Positions 20,715 through 32,263 of a stretch of 43,023 bases of DNA are shown piece after piece. Source of the stretch: Thermofilaceae archaeon (GTDB taxonomy: Archaea > Thermoproteota > Thermoprotei > Thermofilales > Thermofilaceae); NCBI GenBank assembly GCA_027027675.1, contig JALVKT010000024.1:1-43023 (forward strand), given 5' to 3'. Under the pieces are notes generated by a model, which saw only the letters and a list, made by a program, of their open reading frames with translations, was not told the origin of the DNA and ran no database searches. The position numbers were made by a program, and so were the translations under genes. Within the stretch, counting starts at the first letter, position 1; each line of letters opens with the position of its first letter.

Positions 20715-21017
20715 ATGTGTTGGGGTGTACCTGCTCGCGTGATAAAAATAGGGGAGTATACTGCGCTAGTTGATTTTGGCGGCGGAAGCACGAGGGAAGT
20801 TGTGCTTGCCGCGAAGGATGTGAAGGAGGGAGACCTTGTAATGGTGCACGCTGGCGCCATTATAGGTAGGATTAGCGAAGAGGAACTGCTGAGCTCGTTA
20901 GAGCTGTACAAGGAGATGGCTGTTTCTCTCGCAGATGGGGAGGAGCGGAGGGAGATTGAGGAGTACATTGAGAGGTATAAGCAGTTGCTGGGGGTGAAGA
21001 GTGGTGGTGAAAGCTAG
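20715..21017 (+). CDS. hypC: Hydrogenase assembly chaperone HypC/HupF
   Basis: MCWGVPARVIKIGEYTALVDFGG...; MC start typical of HypC. Confidence 0.93.
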   Translation: MCWGVPARVIKIGEYTALVDFGGGSTREVVLAAKDVKEGDLVMVHAGAIIGRISEEELLSSLELYKEMAVSLADGEERREIEEYIERYKQLLGVKSGGES

Positions 21018-22044
21018 GTTTTTAACTTTGGCTCACGGGGCCGGCGGCGTTGAGACGGGAGAGATCCTGGAAGAACTTGTTCTCTCAAAGTTTCCTCCTG
21101 AGCTTAAGAAGGCCCTAGAGGGTTACGGAACAGACGTACTTGATGATGGTGCGACGCTAAAGATAGGGGGCCTCCACGTAGTCCTCTCCATAGACGCGTA
21201 CACTGTGAACCCGCCGTTTTTCCCTGGTGGAAACATCGGCGTACTGGCTGCCTCTGGCTCGATAAACGACGTTTTAATGATGGGTGGGCGGCCGGTGGCT
21301 ATGATGGACTCCATAGTTGCCCAAGAAGGTTTTCCAGTCGACAAGTTGGACGTGATAATGGAGTCTTTCGCCAAGGTCCTTAGGGAAAACGGTGTCGCCC
21401 TCATCGGAGGAGACCTCAAGGTTTTACCGAAAGACGACCTTAGCGGCGTGGTCATAACAACTGTGGGGGTAGGCCTTGCGCGAAAAGTTATAGTTGATAG
21501 AGACCTCAGGCCGGGAGACAAGATAGTTGTGAGCGGCCCTCTCGGCGAGCATGGGGCCACGATACTTGCGCTCCAGTACGGCGTAGACTTGGGGGAAACC
21601 CAGCTTAGAAGTGATGTCCGCCCGCTCACCGACTTGATGCTTCCCCTGCTTGAGAAGTACGGCGATCACATACATGCGGCTAGAGACCCTACGCGGGGAG
21701 GTCTAGCCATGACTTTGAACGACTGGGCCCGGGAGAGCGGAACCGTCATAGTGGTGGAGGAAGACAGGATTCCCCTGAGAGAACCTGTGGTCTCTTATGC
21801 CGAGATGCTGGGTATAGAGCCTTTAGCCCTTGCCTCTGAGGGCGTGGCCGTACTGGGCGTCGCGGCTGACGTGGCGGAAGAAATAGTTGGCGAGATGCGT
21901 AGGCTCGGCTACAGCGAGGCTTCTGTGATAGGGGAGGCTAGGAGGAGCGAGAAGTATAGCGGATACGTGCTCTATAAGAGCAGTGTCGGCGGAGTAAGGA
22001 TACTTGAGCCTCCTCGCGGAGAACTTGTGCCTAGGATATGTTAA
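21001..22044 (+). CDS. hypE: Hydrogenase expression/formation protein HypE
   Basis: AHGAGGVETGEILEELV, RDPTRGGLAMTLNDWA, C-terminal PRIC thiocyanate-carrier cysteine. Confidence 0.96.
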   Translation: MVVKARFLTLAHGAGGVETGEILEELVLSKFPPELKKALEGYGTDVLDDGATLKIGGLHVVLSIDAYTVNPPFFPGGNIGVLAASGSINDVLMMGGRPVAMMDSIVAQEGFPVDKLDVIMESFAKVLRENGVALIGGDLKVLPKDDLSGVVITTVGVGLARKVIVDRDLRPGDKIVVSGPLGEHGATILALQYGVDLGETQLRSDVRPLTDLMLPLLEKYGDHIHAARDPTRGGLAMTLNDWARESGTVIVVEEDRIPLREPVVSYAEMLGIEPLALASEGVAVLGVAADVAEEIVGEMRRLGYSEASVIGEARRSEKYSGYVLYKSSVGGVRILEPPRGELVPRIC

Positions 22045-22048
22045 AAAA

Positions 22049-23410
22049 TTAGGCCTTTTCGATTTTATCTGCTAGAACCTCTACGATGTTTTTAACCGCC
22101 ACGTCTAGGCCGTATACCCTCGCGTTCATCCTTATCGTGTGTATGCATCCTACGCAGGCCGTGGCCACGACGTCGGCTCCTGACTCCTTTATCTCGTCTA
22201 TCTTTGCCTTGCCGGCTATGTGCATGTCGTGCTCCAGGTTTTTGAGGAACTCCATCTCCTCCTTTGAAATCTTCATGTTCATGCCTGTGAGCTTGCCTAG
22301 GAAGTTTAGTGTGGGAAGCACCACGCAGGCTATGGCGTTTCCTCCTCCACAGCACTTGTTGAAGAGGCCATGGCTTGCAAGTTTCCTAAAGTTGCTGGAA
22401 GCCATTGAGAGAACCTCCGCTGGCTCCTCGATGAGCCCGGCGAAGCGCCCCATCTTGCAGGGGCTGTGCCACGTGACCTTCTCGTCCCCCTTCTTGAACT
22501 TTATTTCTCCGCGCTTTGCGGCTTCAAGCACTAGCTCGACAAAGTGTATCACCTTGAAGGGAGGCTTTTCTCCAACGATTTTTGGCAGGTCGAACCTGAA
22601 GGACGTGTAGGGGTAGCCTCCGTCGCTTAGAACCACGTATTCCGGGCCTATCTCCTTTATGTAGTTGTAGATCCTCTTTATGGTCTCGGCTGCCGCTTCG
22701 CCGTCTCCCGCGAGCGCGCCCACCGGCGCCCTTATGGAGAGCGGGTCGCTGGGCATTGTCCAGTCTACTCCCATTGTTGAGAGTATCTTTACGGCGGAGA
22801 CTATCGCTTCGGGCGAGATCATCGCCTCGGCGAGCGATGTTATGTAGAGGTACTTTGCGCCTTTCTTGTCGAGGGGTAGCTCTCCCCCAGCCGCCTCCTT
22901 AGCTTTTTCCAGTACCTCGCTCCACAGCTTCTTGAACCCCTCAACCTGGTTGTAGGCGGTGCTCACTTCGAGGTCTATCATAGCCTTGAGCGCCGTGGGT
23001 ACGCGTCCGGTCTTTGTAAGGAATCCTCTGACGAGCTTTATCATCTCTCCGCTATGTATGCCGAAGGGGCATGTGACGTAGCAGAGGCCACAGTTTGTGC
23101 AGCGGTAAGCCATCTCGGCCCACTTGTTGAGTTCCTCGGCGCTTCTCGGGACGCCGGCGTGGAAAAGCCAGGGGAAGATCTTCGGCAGTATTGACAGCTG
23201 GCTTCTAGTGAGCTTTCTCAGATTCTCCGCCTTGTTTACTGGTCCATACTCCTCTCCAACAGCGTAGTAGGGGCACGCTGTCTCGCAGGCAGCGCATGAA
23301 ACACAGTTTTCTATGAAGTGCACCATTACCGGGTCCATGTGGCTAGCTATGCTCTCGGCGGCCGCCTTAACCCTTCCCGGATCATATGAGACCCAGTCTA
23401 CCTCTACCAT
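22049..23410 (-). CDS. Isp2/HdrD-like iron-sulfur protein (two 4Fe-4S motifs and cysteine-rich CCG-type domains), hydrogenase electron-transfer partner
   Basis: CVSCAACETACPYYAVG, CTNCGLCYVTCPFG, CCGGGNA, ACVGCIHT; directly downstream of the membrane subunit and hydrogenase genes. Confidence 0.85.
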   Translation of the reverse strand: MVEVDWVSYDPGRVKAAAESIASHMDPVMVHFIENCVSCAACETACPYYAVGEEYGPVNKAENLRKLTRSQLSILPKIFPWLFHAGVPRSAEELNKWAEMAYRCTNCGLCYVTCPFGIHSGEMIKLVRGFLTKTGRVPTALKAMIDLEVSTAYNQVEGFKKLWSEVLEKAKEAAGGELPLDKKGAKYLYITSLAEAMISPEAIVSAVKILSTMGVDWTMPSDPLSIRAPVGALAGDGEAAAETIKRIYNYIKEIGPEYVVLSDGGYPYTSFRFDLPKIVGEKPPFKVIHFVELVLEAAKRGEIKFKKGDEKVTWHSPCKMGRFAGLIEEPAEVLSMASSNFRKLASHGLFNKCCGGGNAIACVVLPTLNFLGKLTGMNMKISKEEMEFLKNLEHDMHIAGKAKIDEIKESGADVVATACVGCIHTIRMNARVYGLDVAVKNIVEVLADKIEKA

Positions 23411-23412
23411 TT

Positions 23413-24201
23413 TTAGACACCCCTCGTGTATTTCAGGTCATACCACTCGTGGAGCTTGCCAAACCAGAAGCTGAAGACGAAGTGCCAGAACTTCGTGAAT
23501 GGTAGCAGTGCCACGAGGGCCTCAGCCAGTATTATGTGGATGCCAAGCATGAGCCTGTAAGTTACGATGTCGCCGCTGGGAAGGTGGTGTGCCGCGAGAA
23601 AGCCGAAGACAAGTATTAGCAGCAACAGTGTGAGGTCGAAGAAGTCGCCGAGCCTTACATGGTGAAGGCCCTGGGCCCTCCTGACAATCTTGTCTCCAAG
23701 CTTGTAGGATACGCCGAGGATCGCCAGTATCGCTAGGACGTCGCCGTTCAATATGATCGTCAAGGGGCCCCATATCGTGTTTACAAAGCCCCACTGCATC
23801 TCAGAAACAGGCTTTATCGGCGAGACCGCAGAGAGCGCCCCAGTGGTCGCCGAGAGGGGTATGGCGAAGGGTTCTAGGAGGGCGTAGGGCGGGAACCAGT
23901 ATGCAAAGAATGCTATGTGCTGGCTAAGCAGAAAGATGAGGGGTATAACGCCGAGGATGTGGAGCATTACGAGGCCTGTTATAAAGTCGTGGGGCTTCCT
24001 CTTGATGCTCTGGATTATGGGGTCTAAAAAAGTCATTACAAGCTCCTTGGCCAGGTGGCCGGCCCCCCTCTTGCGGCGTTCCGGCCTCGGCGCTCTCTTC
24101 CAGAAGAGCAGGTACTTGAGAAGCCTGTACGTCGCTCCGAAGGCGAAGATGCCTACCACGTAGGGGGGAGCGACATAGATTGCGAAGTCTAGGAGATCCA
24201 T
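23413..24201 (-). CDS. Isp1-like membrane subunit (NarI/HdrE/DsrM-like b-type cytochrome)
   Basis: Several TM segments with conserved-looking histidines; located between the hydrogenase large subunit and the HdrD-like gene. Confidence 0.75.
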   Translation of the reverse strand: MDLLDFAIYVAPPYVVGIFAFGATYRLLKYLLFWKRAPRPERRKRGAGHLAKELVMTFLDPIIQSIKRKPHDFITGLVMLHILGVIPLIFLLSQHIAFFAYWFPPYALLEPFAIPLSATTGALSAVSPIKPVSEMQWGFVNTIWGPLTIILNGDVLAILAILGVSYKLGDKIVRRAQGLHHVRLGDFFDLTLLLLILVFGFLAAHHLPSGDIVTYRLMLGIHIILAEALVALLPFTKFWHFVFSFWFGKLHEWYDLKYTRGV

Positions 24202-24207
24202 GCCGCT

Positions 24208-25986
24208 CTACCTCGTTATCATCTTCTTTATTGTCTTGATGCTTCCAACCTGGAGGTGCACGGCGCACGCTATGCAGGGGTCGAAGCTCCTGATCGCCCT
24301 GACGAAGTCGAGGCCCTGCCACTGCTCCGGCGGCACCTCCTCTGTGACAACTGTGTTGTAGACGCTCTGCTCGAAGGGCGACATGCCCCACTTGTCCTTG
24401 GGGGACACGTTGCCCGTGGTAGGCGCATGTATCTGGTAGTTCACTATGCGGCCGCCCTCCTGTACTATCCAGTGCCTAACGGTGCCCCTCGGCGCCTCTG
24501 TGAAGCCGACGCCGAAGGTTCTCCTGCTGGGCGGGCTCCAAGGCCTTGACGTCTTTATGTGGCCGTTCCTCACCATTTCTACGGCTTTAAGAACGTTCTT
24601 CCACGCGATGGCAGCGTCTATTACGAGGTTGAAGGCCCTGGCCAGGTCCCTCTGGAGCGTCGTGGAGTACGGGGGAGCCTTCCATTCGAGCTCCATCTCC
24701 TCCACAACGGCCGGAGGCAGGTCGTCTGCGCCACCGCTCCTAGGCAGCGTGACCTTTAACACCCCGTTGCCGCTGCCGTAATCGTTGGGCTGGTACGCCG
24801 TAACGACGAGCCTCGCTATCGGCCCCACCTCGAACGGCGTGACCGTGCCGTCCTTCCACACGAAGCGTACATGCGCCGCCCAGGTGTACTTGCCATTCCA
24901 GTCTATAGCGCCGGGCTTAGGTATCGTTGTCTTGTTCCAGGGGTGGAAGTGCACGTCCTGCTTGCCCCAGAGCAGCTTGTTGCCCTCCGGGTCGGTCTCG
25001 GTGAACACTGAGTCCCAGTTCTTGTAGAACGCCCTGTCTACGTGCTCCATTATGCTCAGGTTTATCTCCTTGTAGCTCTTCGTCACAAGTTCGCCGTTCA
25101 CGAAGGCGCCCGGCTTAATGTCCCTCTTTATGGCCGCCTCGTCTATGTTCTTGTAGAACTCCTCGGGTGACCCGTTAAGCGCCGAGTACGCCTCGGGGTC
25201 GTCGAACACTCCGCCGCTCACCATGTTGTGCCTATCATACGTCTTGCCCTGATCCTTGTAGCCCTCGTGCTCCTCGTAGAACCATACGAGATCCTGCCAC
25301 ACTGTGTAGACAAACTTCACCCAGGCGGTAAGCTTGGTGAGCCTGTACGTATAGCCTATGAGGAGATACTCGGCGTTCGTGAGGTCCGTGGATATGCCGC
25401 CCGGGATTATCGTGGATGGGTGGCTGTGCCTGCCATATATCATCACGCCGCCCTCCCTGGCGATCCTCTGATACTTGACGGCGAGCTGCCATATCTTCCC
25501 TGAGATGGGGTTGAGACCCCTCATAATGTCAGCTATCTTGGCGAAGCCGTGGATATCCCTGTGAGGAGCATCTATCTTCTGTGCGTCGGCCCATACCCGG
25601 GGAGTCAGCTTCTTCACCATTAGCTCGCTGTAGTCGGGGCCGCCCAGCATGTTGAGGATTATAGAGTGGTCATATAGCGGATCCGTCATGGCGAATGCCA
25701 GGTTCCGGAGCACCACGCCGAAGGGCTCGGGAGCCACCCCGTAGACCATGTCGTTGGCGTGCATGGACGCGTTGGCGTGGCTCGCGCCGCAGACACCGCA
25801 TATCCTCGACGTAATGTGTATCGCGTCCTCGGGGGGTCTGCCCCTGAGGAATACCTCGAAGCCCCTGAACATTGTCGCGAAGACCCAGACATCCTTGGGC
25901 TTCTTAGTGGTTTCATCGACGAGAGCCCTGAGGGCTAGGTGCCCCTCTATCCTCGTTATAGGGTCTATAAACACCTCCCTAACCAT
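24208..25986 (-). CDS. [NiFe] hydrogenase large subunit, group 1 type
   Basis: L1 RICGVCGASHANASMHANDM, L2 SFDPCIACAVH followed by C-terminal peptide LQVGSIKTIKKMITR to be cleaved. Confidence 0.96.
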   Translation of the reverse strand: MVREVFIDPITRIEGHLALRALVDETTKKPKDVWVFATMFRGFEVFLRGRPPEDAIHITSRICGVCGASHANASMHANDMVYGVAPEPFGVVLRNLAFAMTDPLYDHSIILNMLGGPDYSELMVKKLTPRVWADAQKIDAPHRDIHGFAKIADIMRGLNPISGKIWQLAVKYQRIAREGGVMIYGRHSHPSTIIPGGISTDLTNAEYLLIGYTYRLTKLTAWVKFVYTVWQDLVWFYEEHEGYKDQGKTYDRHNMVSGGVFDDPEAYSALNGSPEEFYKNIDEAAIKRDIKPGAFVNGELVTKSYKEINLSIMEHVDRAFYKNWDSVFTETDPEGNKLLWGKQDVHFHPWNKTTIPKPGAIDWNGKYTWAAHVRFVWKDGTVTPFEVGPIARLVVTAYQPNDYGSGNGVLKVTLPRSGGADDLPPAVVEEMELEWKAPPYSTTLQRDLARAFNLVIDAAIAWKNVLKAVEMVRNGHIKTSRPWSPPSRRTFGVGFTEAPRGTVRHWIVQEGGRIVNYQIHAPTTGNVSPKDKWGMSPFEQSVYNTVVTEEVPPEQWQGLDFVRAIRSFDPCIACAVHLQVGSIKTIKKMITR

Positions 25987-25988
25987 GC

Positions 25989-27278
25989 CTACTCACCCTC
26001 CTCCGAAAGCATCTTATCCATAGCCTCCTTCACGTGCTCGGAGACCTTCGCCTTCTTACCCTCGACGCTCTTAGAGATCCCATAGGCGACGCCGGCGCCC
26101 ACGAGGAGAGCCCCTATAGCCGCCGCCCCCTCCAGGCCCGTGGGAACCCTGGGCGCGTTAAGCGGCTTGTAGAACGGCTCATAGGAATCCGTGAAGCCGG
26201 GCATTGTGCAGCCTATACATACACCGCCTGTGCGCGTGGGTCCTCCAATCCCGTTTACCCAGCCAACCTTGTTCCACGGACAGTTCGAAATGGGACCCTT
26301 GCACCCGACGGCGTAGAGGCATGCCGCGGTGTTCTCGCCGGGGTACTGCCTGAAGTCTCCCGCAGCATAGCTGCCAGCCCTTGGGCACTGCTCATGAACT
26401 GTACGCCCGAAAATCCACTTTGGCCTCCAGTAGGCGTCGAGCTCCGGGAGAGGCAAAAGCCCCTTCGCCCAGAGCACCAGGTTCGCTAGAACTCTTAGCT
26501 GGCCGTTACCATTTGCGGGGCATCCCGGCACCGCCACCGCCGGCCTGCAGTTGGGGTCGCCGGGCTTCGAGGGGACACATTCTCCATCGACAAAGCGTCT
26601 GAAAGGCTCAGCTTCGGGTAGCCTATGTACGAGGCCCTTTATACCCCTTATCGGGTCATCGAAGAAGCCTACAGCCCCTGTGGGGCTTGGAGACCAGCTT
26701 GACTTTGGCAAGCCGGGCACGGGCTCCAAGACCTTGTTGGCCACGAGGCCGCCGTAGGAGGCACAGTTGCCCACGGCAACGACAGCTACTGCTCTTTTGA
26801 GCAGGCGGCGCATCCACTCGGTACACGATATGGGCTTGCCGTTCTCGTCACCCACGAAACAGTAGTAGTCGCTGCCGGGCGGCCCCCCAGCCTTCTCGTC
26901 CTGGGGGAAGGAGCCTTCAAGGACGAGGACGTAAGGGTCATACTTGCCTTCCACGGCGCCCCTCGCTATGTCGAGGGCCGCCTCTCCCCATTCAGGCATT
27001 ACCGTCTCGTGGAACACGAGCTTTACGTTGCCGGGCCCCACAACGTGGCTGTTTCCGGCGAGAACGTCTATGAGGTCCGGCTCGGTGGCCTGGATAAGTG
27101 CCGTCGTGTTTCCGGCGCAGTCCTGTGCTTCGAACCAGACGATGTTTATTGTCCCACTGGCGGCGGCCGCCGCAGCGTCCCGTATAAGCTCGTCCCAGTT
27201 GAGGGATGCGAGAAGCGCTGTGGTGCCGGCCAGTTTTAGAAAGTCTCTTCTACTTAGCTTAACGCTGGTTGAGGCCAT
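25989..27278 (-). CDS. [NiFe] hydrogenase small subunit with Tat signal and C-terminal TM anchor
   Basis: Tat signal [19 protein letters not shown], cysteine motifs ([21 protein letters not shown]), C-terminal hydrophobic segment. Confidence 0.95.
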
Positions 27279-27437: not shown

Positions 27438-28109
27438 GTGAGCATTAAAGAATTCATTCGATTTTCAAAAGAACTGGCTGCTATATATGAAGAGCTAAAA
27501 TCCTCTCTTATAGGGCCGTTGCCCAGCGTCTCAGACCAGCTGGCAGAACTGCTCTATAAAATGCCTCCCGCCAAGGAAGAAGACATCAATAAACTTTCAA
27601 GCGAGCTTGAAAAAGCAGGCCACGGCGACCTCGTAAAAAAGCTCCTGGACAAGCCGCCAAGAGTACTCGTAGGGGTGCTCTACTCCTATGGTACATGCGG
27701 CGAAGCCGCCTATAACGCATATAAGAGCCTCCTAAGCAATCCGCCCAGCGGAAACGTCGTTATAGAGGATTTTTCAACTGACGCGCTTACCGTGGCAGAC
27801 ACTATAAGGGACAGCGGGGCGGACAAGGTAGTTATCTTAACGATAAAGAGGCGGGGCCGTGAACCCGGGGTTTACGTGAGACACGTGACTCTTAAACAGC
27901 CTTCAGCTATAGAGGCCGTAGAGGAGATTAGGCCTAGCCTTGAGGGACTACTAGACGTAGATGCCCTGCTTAGGGGACTTAACGTATTCCTAGGAGAAGG
28001 GGACATTGAGGTACACGAGTGTGAGCCGGAAAGTGAGAGCTGCGAGGAATGCACTAAGCTGCTAATAGATTCCCTTATGGAGACACTGGGTATGCGGGAT
28101 GGCGTGTGA
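27438..28109 (+). CDS. Degenerate hydrogenase-maturation-protease-like protein with N-terminal extension
   Basis: RVLVGVLYSYGTCGEAAYNAYKSLL...DKVVILTIKRRGREPGVYVRHVTL...DIEVHECEPESESCEECTKLLIDSLMETL tracks the HybD-type fold of the following gene but lacks its apparent metal-binding residues. Confidence 0.55.
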   Translation: MSIKEFIRFSKELAAIYEELKSSLIGPLPSVSDQLAELLYKMPPAKEEDINKLSSELEKAGHGDLVKKLLDKPPRVLVGVLYSYGTCGEAAYNAYKSLLSNPPSGNVVIEDFSTDALTVADTIRDSGADKVVILTIKRRGREPGVYVRHVTLKQPSAIEAVEEIRPSLEGLLDVDALLRGLNVFLGEGDIEVHECEPESESCEECTKLLIDSLMETLGMRDGV

Positions 28110-28617
28110 CCGCGTACTAGTGGTTGGTGTCGGGAACAGAATGTACGGCGACGACGCCTTCGGCCCCGCTATGATAGACGCGCTTAGACGGTGCGGGTTT
28201 CCCTGCGACACTGCTGACAGCGATGGCGGGCTTTTCTTCCTAGCTTCACTCCTCGAGGATAAAGAACTCGTAGTCTTCATTGATATTCTAGATGAAGAGT
28301 ACGGTTCACCGGGCGACGTTGTAACGTTGACCCTTAATCCTTCCAGGCTTAGCGGCGAAGACTACGCGCGCCTCTTCTCAATGGAGACCTCGCCTCACAC
28401 GGTTACGCCGGCGCATATAGTGGCCGTAGCGTACTCGGGGGGCATTTTCCGCGGAAAAGCGGTGGTTGTCGGCGTGGTGAGCACTGCTACGGGTTTTGCG
28501 CAGCCGCTCTCCGACACCGTGAAGAAAAGAGTTGTTGATGTGTGCGAGAAAGTTTCCGAGATACTTAAGGTAAGGTTTGACTGCTCCTGCGTAGGAAAAA
28601 TACTTGGTGTAACTTAG
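28099..28617 (+). CDS. Hydrogenase maturation protease (HybD/HycI family)
   Basis: VLVVGVGNRMYGDDAFGPAMIDAL, LVVFIDILDEEYGSPGDVVTLTL, SPHTVTPAHI. Confidence 0.88.
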   Translation: MACDRVLVVGVGNRMYGDDAFGPAMIDALRRCGFPCDTADSDGGLFFLASLLEDKELVVFIDILDEEYGSPGDVVTLTLNPSRLSGEDYARLFSMETSPHTVTPAHIVAVAYSGGIFRGKAVVVGVVSTATGFAQPLSDTVKKRVVDVCEKVSEILKVRFDCSCVGKILGVT

Positions 28618-28628
28618 AGGCGTGGAGG

Positions 28629-29363
28629 CTAAGCGTTCAGGCTCCGGCCTATGTTTTCCTTTAGTTTCTCGTAGAGAAACTTGTAGTAGAGTATCAGGAT
28701 TCCCGTGAGGATGACCGCCACGGCTACTGTGAGAAAGCGTGGAAGATCCCCCAGCCCCACCTCTAGAGTCGAGATGAGGGACATAAGTAGAGCCGAGATA
28801 AGAGATGCCCTAAATATGCCGTTGATGGCGTACCCGCGCTCTCTCGGCGAGAGGGAGGGGGCCATTATGAGGTACGAGAAGGCTGGCAGGGTGATTATGT
28901 AGGGGTATTTCTCCATTAAGGTGTAGCGGAACTTGTACATCAAAAGCAGTGTCCCCACTACGACACCGTTAGACACGACAAGCGATAAAACGGTGGGGTC
29001 GCTGCTAAGGGCGACCAGCAGTGAATACCCGTAGACTATGATGGCTGCGGCCGCGATCATCAAGTCGAGGAGCCCGGCGGGTACTCTCTCCACCCGTGTC
29101 TCTGATGGAGAGAGTCCCTGGACGAGCTCCACGAGTAGCCGGCCAGCCTCGGTTAGCTCGTAGCGCCCGTCAACCCTCTTTCGGACGACGCTTTTCATCA
29201 TGCCGAGGTGAAAGGCGAGTTCGCCGCTGGACCGGAACCCGCATAGCCTGGCTATCTCGGAGAAGCTTCTCGGCGACTCATAGAGGAGGAAGGCTATTTT
29301 CAGGCGCTTAGCATTTGCCAGCGCCTTCAGAGTGTTCGCCTTGCTCTCCAGGCCGGCCTCCAA
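28629..29363 (-). CDS. Membrane-anchored winged-helix (ArsR-like) transcriptional regulator
   Basis: N-terminal HTH ALANAKRLKIAFLLYESPRSFSEIARLCGFRSSGELAFHLGMM, then about five hydrophobic segments. Confidence 0.75.
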   Translation of the reverse strand: MEAGLESKANTLKALANAKRLKIAFLLYESPRSFSEIARLCGFRSSGELAFHLGMMKSVVRKRVDGRYELTEAGRLLVELVQGLSPSETRVERVPAGLLDLMIAAAAIIVYGYSLLVALSSDPTVLSLVVSNGVVVGTLLLMYKFRYTLMEKYPYIITLPAFSYLIMAPSLSPRERGYAINGIFRASLISALLMSLISTLEVGLGDLPRFLTVAVAVILTGILILYYKFLYEKLKENIGRSLNA

Positions 29364-29445: not shown

Positions 29446-29814
29446 ATGAGCGTCGACAAGGAGGAGGTGAAAAAGAAGGTTATAGAGGCGCTAAAGAAGA
29501 CCTACGACCCCGAGATACCTGTCAACGTCTACGACCTAGGACTAATCTATGATATACGGGTAAAAGACGACAAGACCGTTGAGATAGACATGACCATGAC
29601 CGCCGTCGGCTGCCCCGTGGCAAGCATGGTTGTAATGATGACCGAAGCGATGGTGCAGGAAGAACTGGGCGACGAGTACAAGGTTAAGGTAAACCTCGTG
29701 TGGGATCCCCCATGGACCCCCGACAGGGTAACCCCTGAGGGGCGTAAACAGTTGAAGGAAATATTCGGCTACGACATTGTGGAGGAGTGGAAGAAGAGGT
29801 ACCAGCAGCAATGA
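29446..29814 (+). CDS. MIP18/DUF59 (SufT-like) iron-sulfur assembly protein
   Basis: ALKKTYDPEIPVNVYDLGLIYDI...MTMTAVGCPVASMVVMMTEAM...WDPPWTPDRVTPEGRKQL. Confidence 0.9.
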   Translation: MSVDKEEVKKKVIEALKKTYDPEIPVNVYDLGLIYDIRVKDDKTVEIDMTMTAVGCPVASMVVMMTEAMVQEELGDEYKVKVNLVWDPPWTPDRVTPEGRKQLKEIFGYDIVEEWKKRYQQQ

Positions 29815-30683
29815 TCGCCGCAGTAACCGGCGGCAAAGGCGGCACCGGGAAGAGCTTCGTAGCAACAAACCTTGCAGTACTCCTTGCACGTAGCCACAGC
29901 CTGGTGCTAGCCGACCTCGACGTTGAGGCGCCAAACGACCACATACTGCTCAGCGCAGAGCTTGAAGGAGAGGAGGCTGTCAAAATAATGTTCCCCTTCA
30001 TACGCTACGAGAAATGTATACGATGCAGAGCATGCGTCAACGTCTGCGACACCGGCGCCATGCTGGCATCCAAGGAGGGGCTGCCCTACGTTATACCCAG
30101 GCTCTGCAGCGGCTGCAAGTCCTGCCTCTTCGCGTGCCCAACGGAGGCCATAGTCGCCGGCGAGAGAGTTATAGGCCGCACCTACGTTACCCCCGTCTCA
30201 GTGAACGGCTCCAGCTTCACGCTGGTCACAGGCGTCCTGAAGGAGGGAGAGGAACACACACCCCCTGTGGTGCTCGCAGCCCGCAGAAGAGCCTTGTCGC
30301 TTGACGCCGAGCTTCACCTGGTAGACACCGCGGCCGGCACGAGCAACACCGTGTCCACGGCGATGTACGGCGCGAAGGCCGCTGTCGCCGTGACGGAGCC
30401 CACACCCCTCGGCCTCCACGACCTCAAGCTCATACTCCACGTCCTGAAAGAGTTGGAGGTTCCGAGGAGGTACGTGGTGATAAACCGGGCCGGTATAGGG
30501 CCGGCAGAGAAACACTACAGGGTGGCCGAGGAAATGGGCGCGAAAGTCGTGGTTGAGATACCGTATTCGCGGGAAGTTGTGGAGAGCTATGTGAAGGGCA
30601 TCCCCATCGTCGCGTCGAACCCTGCCTCCGAGGCATCGGAGGCGCTTAGAACCGTGGCGGAGGCCCTGGAGGAGGCGATGTAA
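29811..30683 (+). CDS. MinD-superfamily ATPase with inserted ferredoxin domain, copy 1
   Basis: TGGKGGTGKSFVATNLAVLL; CIRCRACVNVCDTGAM and CSGCKSCLFACPTEAI. Start set to ATG 29811, overlapping the upstream stop (ATGA). Confidence 0.92.
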   Translation: MIAAVTGGKGGTGKSFVATNLAVLLARSHSLVLADLDVEAPNDHILLSAELEGEEAVKIMFPFIRYEKCIRCRACVNVCDTGAMLASKEGLPYVIPRLCSGCKSCLFACPTEAIVAGERVIGRTYVTPVSVNGSSFTLVTGVLKEGEEHTPPVVLAARRRALSLDAELHLVDTAAGTSNTVSTAMYGAKAAVAVTEPTPLGLHDLKLILHVLKELEVPRRYVVINRAGIGPAEKHYRVAEEMGAKVVVEIPYSREVVESYVKGIPIVASNPASEASEALRTVAEALEEAM

Positions 30684-30684
30684 C

Positions 30685-31653
30685 ATGCTCGAGGTCGCTG
30701 TTGCCAGTGGTAAGGGAGGTGTGGGTAAGAGCACTGTTTCCTCGACACTCGCCATAATGCTTTCCAAGACGCGGCATGTGATAGCGGTGGACGCGGACGC
30801 CGACGCGCCGAACCTGCACCTCATCTTCGGCGTCGAGGACTGGGAGAAAGAGGAGCCCTTCGGGGAAGTATACGTGGCCCAGATACACGACGAAAAATGT
30901 ATACGCTGCGGCCGCTGCCGCGATGAGTGCCCCTACGGCGCCATAGACGTAATCGATGGAAAGTACGTGGTAAGCCCCGTGCTATGCGAGGGCTGCCTCA
31001 CGTGCACGCTTGTGTGCCCGGTGAAGGGGGCGATTACGAGGTACAAGCGCACCGCAGGCTATATTCGCGAAGCCACGACCAGGTACGGGTTCCCCCTGAT
31101 ATCGGCTAGGATGGAGCCCGGCAGGCCTAACACGGGCAAAATCGTGAGTGAGGAGAAGGAGCGGGCACGCAGCCGCGCAGACGCGGACACCGTGATAGTT
31201 ATAGACTCTGCGGCGGGGATAGGGTGCCAGGTTGTATCCAGCCTCGCAGGCTCCCACCTAGCCGTCCTAGTGGCAGAGCCCACCCCGGCCAGTCTAAGCG
31301 ACCTTAGGCGCGTCTACATGCTCACGAGGCACTTCATGCAGCCGGCGGTTCTAGTGATAAACAAGTATGACATGAACCCCGAGTTCCTACCTAAAATAGA
31401 GGAGTTCGCCGAGGAAAACGGCATCGAAATAGTCGGGCGCATCCCCTACGACGATAATCTGCCGTTAAGCATGGCTGCGATGAAGCCCATGATTGAGGCT
31501 TACCCTGAGAGCCCAGCTTCTCAAGCGCTACTCCGAGTAGCCGAGAACGTTGAGAAGATAGTCTCAGACTGGCGCTCCTGGTTCATAAAGCATAGGCCCA
31601 AGAAGCCGCTTCCCTACAGGCCGGAAATAATCAAGCCGGAAGGCTTCGACTAA
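30685..31653 (+). CDS. MinD-superfamily ATPase with inserted ferredoxin domain, copy 2
   Basis: ASGKGGVGKSTVSSTLAIML; CIRCGRCRDECPYGAI and CEGCLTCTLVCPVKGAI. Confidence 0.92.
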   Translation: MLEVAVASGKGGVGKSTVSSTLAIMLSKTRHVIAVDADADAPNLHLIFGVEDWEKEEPFGEVYVAQIHDEKCIRCGRCRDECPYGAIDVIDGKYVVSPVLCEGCLTCTLVCPVKGAITRYKRTAGYIREATTRYGFPLISARMEPGRPNTGKIVSEEKERARSRADADTVIVIDSAAGIGCQVVSSLAGSHLAVLVAEPTPASLSDLRRVYMLTRHFMQPAVLVINKYDMNPEFLPKIEEFAEENGIEIVGRIPYDDNLPLSMAAMKPMIEAYPESPASQALLRVAENVEKIVSDWRSWFIKHRPKKPLPYRPEIIKPEGFD

Positions 31654-31765
31654 AACCCGGCGGCCCGGGGCACCAGACCAGAAAAACACATTTTTGGGCA
31701 TTAAAACGCCCCGAAACACCAGAGAGACCACCGGCTTACAACCTGTTTTTGAGGAAAACTTTTGG

Positions 31766-31874
31766 TGGTGCCGGGGCCGGGCTTCGAACCCGGGATGACC
31801 GGATTATGAGTTTCGCCTCCCCTCTTCCAGGCTATCGGGGCCCGGCGCCCTCGGCCAGGCTAGGCGACCCCGGC
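31766..31874 (-). tRNA. tRNA-Met (CAT, elongator-like) with 30-nt non-canonical intron, CCA encoded
   Basis: GCCGGGG/CCCCGGC acceptor, CCGGGTTCGAAGCCCGG T-arm; after removing the intron the anticodon arm is CCGGA-CTCATAA-TCCGG. Confidence 0.88.
31812..31841 (-). other. tRNA-Met intron at position 30/31
   Basis: GCCCCGATAGCCTGGAAGAGGGGAGGCGAA; BHB helix CGCC/GGCG with 3-nt bulges GGG and AAA. Confidence 0.75.
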
Positions 31875-31924
31875 TCTCCTGATAGATGATTTAGGATGGG
31901 TTTTTGTGGTTTTCGGTTGCCGGC

Positions 31925-32263
31925 TCAATACTGAGACGCGTTCTTAACTATTTCCTCAAGCGCCTCCCTGATGGGCAGGCCGTGGAGCGGGAAGTACTTT
32001 ATCTTTACCTCTTCGAGGGCGGCCGTGGCGTTTGGGCCGAAGGCCCCGGCAACGACCATTGACACGCCGTTGTCTATGAGTGCCTGCACAGCCTTTATAG
32101 CCGCCCCGCCGCTCGCCTTTGCGCCGGGATTTTCAATCGTCTCCACGCCCTTTATCTCGTTGTTTTCGATCTCCACTAGGACGAAATAGGGTGCCCTGCC
32201 GAAACGGTGGCTTATCACGGAGTCGAGCCCCTTATCCTCTTCCACAGCGAAAGCCACTTTCAT
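31925..32263 (-). CDS. Dinitrogenase iron-molybdenum cofactor biosynthesis-like (NifX/NifB C-terminal-like) protein
   Basis: MKVAFAVEEDKGLDSVISHRFGRAPYFVLVEIENNEIKGVETIENPGAKASGGAAIKAVQALIDNGVSMVVAGAFGPNA. Confidence 0.9.
   Translation of the reverse strand: MKVAFAVEEDKGLDSVISHRFGRAPYFVLVEIENNEIKGVETIENPGAKASGGAAIKAVQALIDNGVSMVVAGAFGPNATAALEEVKIKYFPLHGLPIREALEEIVKNASQY

Follow-up and report, generated by a model that had tools for sequence, protein, structure and literature searches.

The window, that is, the whole stretch of 43,023 nucleotides analyzed here, contains a group-1 [NiFe]-hydrogenase cluster with hynS, hynL, isp1 and isp2 at positions 22049–27278 of the minus strand. hynS (25989–27278) encodes the small subunit with a Tat signal, hynL (24208–25986) the large subunit, isp1 (23413–24201; naming after PMC5461723 and PMC3189178) a membrane cytochrome subunit, and isp2 (22049–23410) an iron-sulfur/CCG subunit. 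The gene for the cofactor maturation factor HypE is at 21001–22044 on the plus strand. The C-terminus of HynL is DPCIACAVH followed by a 15-residue extension, whose removal calls for a protease.

Two plus-strand genes, hypZ and hycI, are divergent from these structural genes. hycI (hoxM; 28099–28617 including the stop, codons to 28614) encodes an active-type maturation protease with Asp19, Asp62 and His100 all present. It matches TIGR00072 at 3e-18 and is the sole maturation protease found in the source assembly, which is 76% complete. hypZ is at 27438–28109 including the stop (codons to 28106), and the two genes overlap by 11 nt (28099–28109). Both the overlap and the divergent arrangement had been described in an earlier sequence-only reading and are correct.

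HypZ has 223 aa and is predicted to be a catalytically dead protein of the HycI/HybD fold. A helical N-terminal extension of about 73 residues (residues 1–73, 27438–27656; residues 25–45 are modeled at low confidence) is followed by the HycI-fold core. Codons 88–89 (Gly-Glu, 27699–27704) take the position of the first acidic metal ligand, and Gly88 corresponds to Asp19 of the active protease. Codons 135–144 (TIKRRGREPG, 27840–27869) place Thr135 at the position of Asp62 and continue into the family's own motif R-G-R-x-P-G. Codons 165–170 (RPSLEG, 27930–27947) place Gly170 at the position of the catalytic-site His100, and codons 194–197 (ECEP, 28017–28028) are the counterpart of the end of the GC(E/Q)P strand of proteases. 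The N-terminal extension, previously put at about 75 residues, is real, but it is restricted to the window's family (the window and seven other loci); HypZ homologues outside this family have about 143–170 aa.

The gene at 28629–29363, convergent with hycI, encodes a membrane protein whose N-terminus is a winged helix (DUF7347). It adjoins hycI in the sister genome too and is a possible regulator. Also beside the hydrogenase, 29446–32263 contains a MIP18/DUF59-like gene, two P-loop ATPases with ferredoxin inserts and a NifX-like gene. This set keeps its position in the sister genome (L029) and may form a module for the assembly of Fe-S clusters or cofactors.

Homology and fold of HypZ

BLASTP of the window HypZ against the adjacent HycI gives a non-significant E-value of 9.3, so the alignment of the two proteins by eye is insufficient alone. 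Sequence searches of Pfam, NCBIfam and PDB with the window HypZ alone returned nothing useful. A single-protein search finds HypZ relatives in 26 of 400 Thermoproteota genomes, with identities from 57% in the sister genome down to about 30%. When the alignment of 22 HypZ family members is compared with that of 17 adjacent active proteases, the profile-profile E-value is 3.4e-5 over 122 columns. The register is the one originally proposed by eye, with ILTIK under FIDIL and GTCGE under YGDDA, and the resemblance of the 223-aa ORF to its neighbor is confirmed. A wider HypZ family alignment matches the active proteases at 1.1e-7. TIGR00072 is matched by 11 of the 22 members (best 1.9e-9), and the family profile matches PDB 5ttx (1.8e-8) and E. 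coli HybD, 1cfz (1.1e-4). HypZ is therefore homologous over the whole core to the superfamily TIGR00072/PF01750 with the HybD fold, through the family and not through the window protein alone.

The AlphaFold2 model of the window HypZ has a pLDDT of 88.5. In Foldseek, all seven of its PDB matches with E ≤ 0.001 are hydrogenase maturation proteases. The TM-scores are modest (0.35–0.41 by query length), a result due in part to the additional N-terminal residues. A short HypZ homologue is modeled with a pLDDT of 95.3, and its best PDB match is E. coli HybD 1cfz (3.5e-10, TM 0.64). The predicted structures thus have the alpha-beta-alpha fold of HybD, and the expectation of a fold related to HybD/HycI is upheld. 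Chance similarity of HypZ to maturation proteases is rejected.

The former metal site

The metal ligands are Glu/Asp16, Asp62 and His93 in E. coli HybD, which correspond to Asp19, Asp62 and His100 in the window HycI. These positions were compared in 102 archaeal and bacterial sequences, 47 HypZ-type and 55 active-type, with the class set by profile scores, not by ligands, and two rows adjusted by hand: L042:18402, a spurious match, was excluded, and L134:2017 (22.1 vs 21.9 bits, all ligands present) was reassigned to the active class. All three ligands are retained in 55 of 55 active-type proteins. Asp62 and His100 are retained in none of the 47 HypZ-type proteins, and an acidic residue is seen at position 19 in only one; all three ligands are thus lost in 46 members and two of the three in the remaining one. 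The two classes are split by a single branch with support of 100/99.

The window HypZ, with Gly88, Thr135 and Gly170 at the three places, does not have the ligand set of an active endopeptidase. Replacement of the acidic metal-binding positions, noticed in the sequence-only reading, extends over the family, and conserved ligands in homologues, which would have spoken for a second active protease, are not seen. The same reading held that SPHTVTP of HycI has no counterpart in HypZ, which is incorrect: the counterpart is SLEGLLD, in which His is replaced by Gly170 (Gly in 83% of the family). Across the family, the first ligand is replaced by G, C, Y or L, the second by G, A or T, and the His by G or Y; position 19 may be C, G, L, M, S, Y, H, F or E. 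No replacement ligand set is common to HypZ, which makes a different metal site unlikely. Conservation specific to the family is seen at R139-G140-R141, G170, E194, C195 and C205, around the former cleft. E194, in the ECEP motif, replaces the Gly of proteases in 87% of HypZ members.

The term "degenerate", applied earlier to this ORF, is appropriate for the catalytic site but not for the gene, which is conserved, intact and under purifying selection. Between close pairs, dN/dS is 0.07–0.28 for hypZ and 0.05–0.20 for hycI. These values and the intact frames across two phyla exclude decay. In one draft genome (G353; L140:5956–7014), the HypZ frame is part of a 352-aa ORF that has an HTH-like protein at its end, probably as the result of a frameshift.

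The same fold, with three metal ligands that are invariant in the active proteases and are lost consistently over the 47 members, agrees with the earlier pseudoprotease reading. Alignments and models together strongly support HypZ as a catalytically dead paralogue of the maturation protease.

Distribution in archaea and bacteria

Among the 400 Thermoproteota genomes, strong HypZ matches are seen in 30 of the 33 with this hydrogenase (large-subunit match at E ≤ 1e-140) and in 0 of the 367 others (p = 3.8e-42), a count that is optimistic because the genomes are treated as independent despite their relatedness. The co-occurrence suggested as a check on the original proposal is thus found. The three exceptions are G178, with a divergent HypZ beside the protease, G075, whose divergent HypZ is encoded apart from the hydrogenase, and G080, which has hynL and no detectable hypZ. 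In G075, the very divergent HypZ-like ORF (L110:4848–5366) has no ligands, and no hydrogenase gene or active protease lies within the 10 kb read. G178 belongs to the window's family, and its locus (L109) combines a large subunit and HycI of the Pyrodictiaceae-like type with a very diverged HypZ encoded convergently to HycI. Its hydrogenase, its protease and probably its HypZ, the last placed on a long branch, group with those of Pyrodictiaceae-like genomes, which suggests that the set was transferred as a whole. This and the other lineage labels used here, such as Ignicoccus-like, are our reading, including gene order and sequence, not a computed assignment.

Exactly one HypZ and one active protease are seen in 33 Thermoproteota loci. 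A ligand-less member together with an active one is also present in SUL2-like clusters of Sulfolobales, recognized by the isp1/isp2 layout of PMC11018855, and in a lineage represented by L112 and L116. Assignment of L112 and L116 to group 2e is unsupported by the PDB and tree results, and they are left unclassified. Hydrogenases with a cleavable extension are accompanied by the active protease alone in L122, L138 and L139. A match in L028 from the protein scan of genome contigs is false and corresponds to an unrelated actinobacterial protein. A tblastn search of plasmids with a bridging HypZ member found no match.

A family search among 199 Actinomycetota genomes finds ten ligand-less members. 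In nine of the ten cases the gene comes directly after that of the large subunit, and in eight an active paralogue is encoded on the same stretch. The carriers are left unclassified, as their assignment to group 1h or 2a is unsupported by the PDB and tree results. Actinobacterial clusters with HofG-like large subunits (L158, L163 and L166), which also have a cleavable extension, contain only the active protease in the stretches read; the large subunit of L158 matches PDB 5aa5 at 1091 bits. Five members without the three-ligand site (L149:8503–8979, L154:6928–7449, L156:7157–7675, L162:6801–7292 and L112:4375–4968) score 49.5–59.1 bits against TIGR00072, above its curated cut-off of 47.45 bits. 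Automatic annotation would therefore name them maturation proteases, an annotation error that is flagged here.

Possible roles of HypZ

Pairs of an active and an inactive protein are found repeatedly in archaea and bacteria, alongside several hydrogenase types. This points to the inactive copy as a helper in assembly, not a gene in decay. As a dead paralogue, HypZ probably binds the precursor of the large subunit and cooperates with the active protease. In this reading, HypZ is an ancient paralogue of the maturation protease in which the HybD fold has persisted and the catalytic site that senses metal or nickel has been lost. The former catalytic cleft, with the loops RGRxPG and RPSLEG, could then be a binding site, by which HypZ would hold the HynL precursor without cutting until loading is complete. 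Active HydD and HyaD form stable complexes with the unprocessed large subunit, for which cofactor synthesis is required and the extension is dispensable (PMC5299533). By analogy with these complexes, and given the gene linkage and co-inheritance, the chaperone or adaptor role in large-subunit processing proposed for the window gene would fit. The role is not universal, as several extension-bearing hydrogenases have the active protease alone.

The gene order bears on the partner of HypZ. In 16 loci, hypZ and hycI lie on one strand and abut or overlap, and this strong linkage, the tightest in archaea, makes a role as a subunit of the protease the main rival: HypZ could be a regulatory or specificity subunit in a HypZ-HycI heterodimer, contacting HynL only via HycI. 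In Pyrodictiaceae-like and Ignicoccus-like genomes (L036, L047, L127 and L137), hynL is far from hypZ and hycI, which remain paired, in the Pyrodictiaceae-like ones together with hynS-isp1-isp2. This separation from hynL, like the lack of a detectable hypZ in G080, counts against the main explanation. Tree distances of HypZ also correlate best with those of HycI (0.76–0.77; r = 0.76 over 33 loci, reached in 0 of 5000 shuffles), although the correlations with HynS (0.69) and HynL (0.63) are high too and the HypZ/HycI value partly reflects common species history. Against the heterodimer, hypZ and hycI are apart in Thermoproteaceae-like genomes and Actinomycetota, where hypZ is by hynS or directly after hynL. 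Besides, solved HybD/HycI proteases act as monomers. The heterodimer is considered rather unlikely.

A role in assembly or quality control of the small subunit or of the Isp1/Isp2 module is less likely still. hypZ adjoins hynS, not hynL, in the window's family (divergently) and in Pyrodictiaceae-like and Thermoproteaceae-like genomes, and most carriers have Tat-exported enzymes of the Isp1/Isp2 type. However, HypZ is also present in L112 and L116, where Isp1/Isp2 are absent and the small subunits have no Tat signal. hypZ directly follows hynL in these two archaeal loci, as in the nine actinobacterial ones.

Different chemistry, such as metal or cofactor handling by Cys195, Cys205 and the RGR loop, is very improbable. 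The C-terminal Cys pair pointed out earlier (Cys202 and Cys205) is present in the window and the sister genome, but the commonest cysteines of the family are Cys195 (66%) and Cys205 (62%). In favor of such chemistry, position 205 is usually Ala in proteases, and the conserved HypZ motifs cluster around the former active site. Yet the Acidianus-type branch has neither Cys195 nor Cys205, several other members lack one of them, active proteases often have a GC(E/Q)P strand as well, and no replacement ligand is shared by HypZ members.

That HypZ is a second active protease, as the Thermoproteus tenax homologue TTX_0029, named hypZ, is annotated (PMC3189178) and as the TIGR00072 scores of several bacterial members would imply, or a decaying pseudogene, is rejected by the near-complete loss of the ligands and by the low dN/dS with intact frames.

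HypZ as a dead partner of the active protease would alter the description of hydrogenase maturation, which at present comprises HypA-F and one specific protease. In the review literature, each hydrogenase has one protease, whose cleft contains two acidic residues and a His (PMC12134894). The chances are about even that HypZ represents a pan-prokaryotic pseudoprotease family, which split off before its archaeal and bacterial spread and is an obligate maturation partner of several [NiFe]-hydrogenase lineages. If so, maturation there would be a two-paralogue process with an inactive holder and an active cutter, which is absent from the current Hyp/HycI scheme. If some hydrogenase lineages require a dead paralogue, this would explain the "hypothetical" gene of archaeal clusters, supply a concrete missing part for heterologous expression, and provide a naturally inactive protease with which to trap the precursor complex.

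The window gene is a small-protein gene beside hoxM/hycI in an Isp-type cluster, as is hypZ of group 1g clusters. From gene order, length and lineage, we infer that it belongs to the published hypZ family (CAC86894/TTX_0029). In the Acidianus ambivalens cluster, hypZ adjoins hoxM and is listed as unknown (PMC5461723). The published HypZ of A. ambivalens and A. copahuensis (CAC86894 and EZQ01603) have 142–143 aa and are encoded beside hoxM; L048, L114, L124 and L125, with hypE, a 144-aa HypZ and hoxM, agree with this and group with the window family. The T. tenax gene is near hynS, which is the layout of Thermoproteaceae-like loci. The family is uncharacterized though already known as HypZ. No description of an inactive maturation-protease paralogue was found in the open-licence literature; the papers found list HypZ as unknown, hypothetical or a protease, and they mention neither the dead site nor a common family nor bacterial members.

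HypZ shares with the HybD/HyaD/HycI endopeptidases (TIGR00072, PF01750; PDB 1cfz, 5ija, 2e85 and 5ttx) the fold, the order of strands and helices, the GC(E/Q)P strand, and the genomic linkage to the large subunit and hyp genes. It differs from them in the absence of metal ligands and in its own motifs RGRxPG, RPSLEG and ECEP. PAC2-type proteasome assembly chaperones (5un0 and 3mnf) show weak fold likeness to the window model (Foldseek E = 1.9e-3 to 3.6e-3). With no sequence relation and no common partner, they are only an analogy for an assembly factor on a hydrolase-like fold. A further parallel is offered by the HydD and HyaD complexes: there the large subunit is bound by active proteases, whereas in the case of HypZ a permanently inactive paralogue would bind it.
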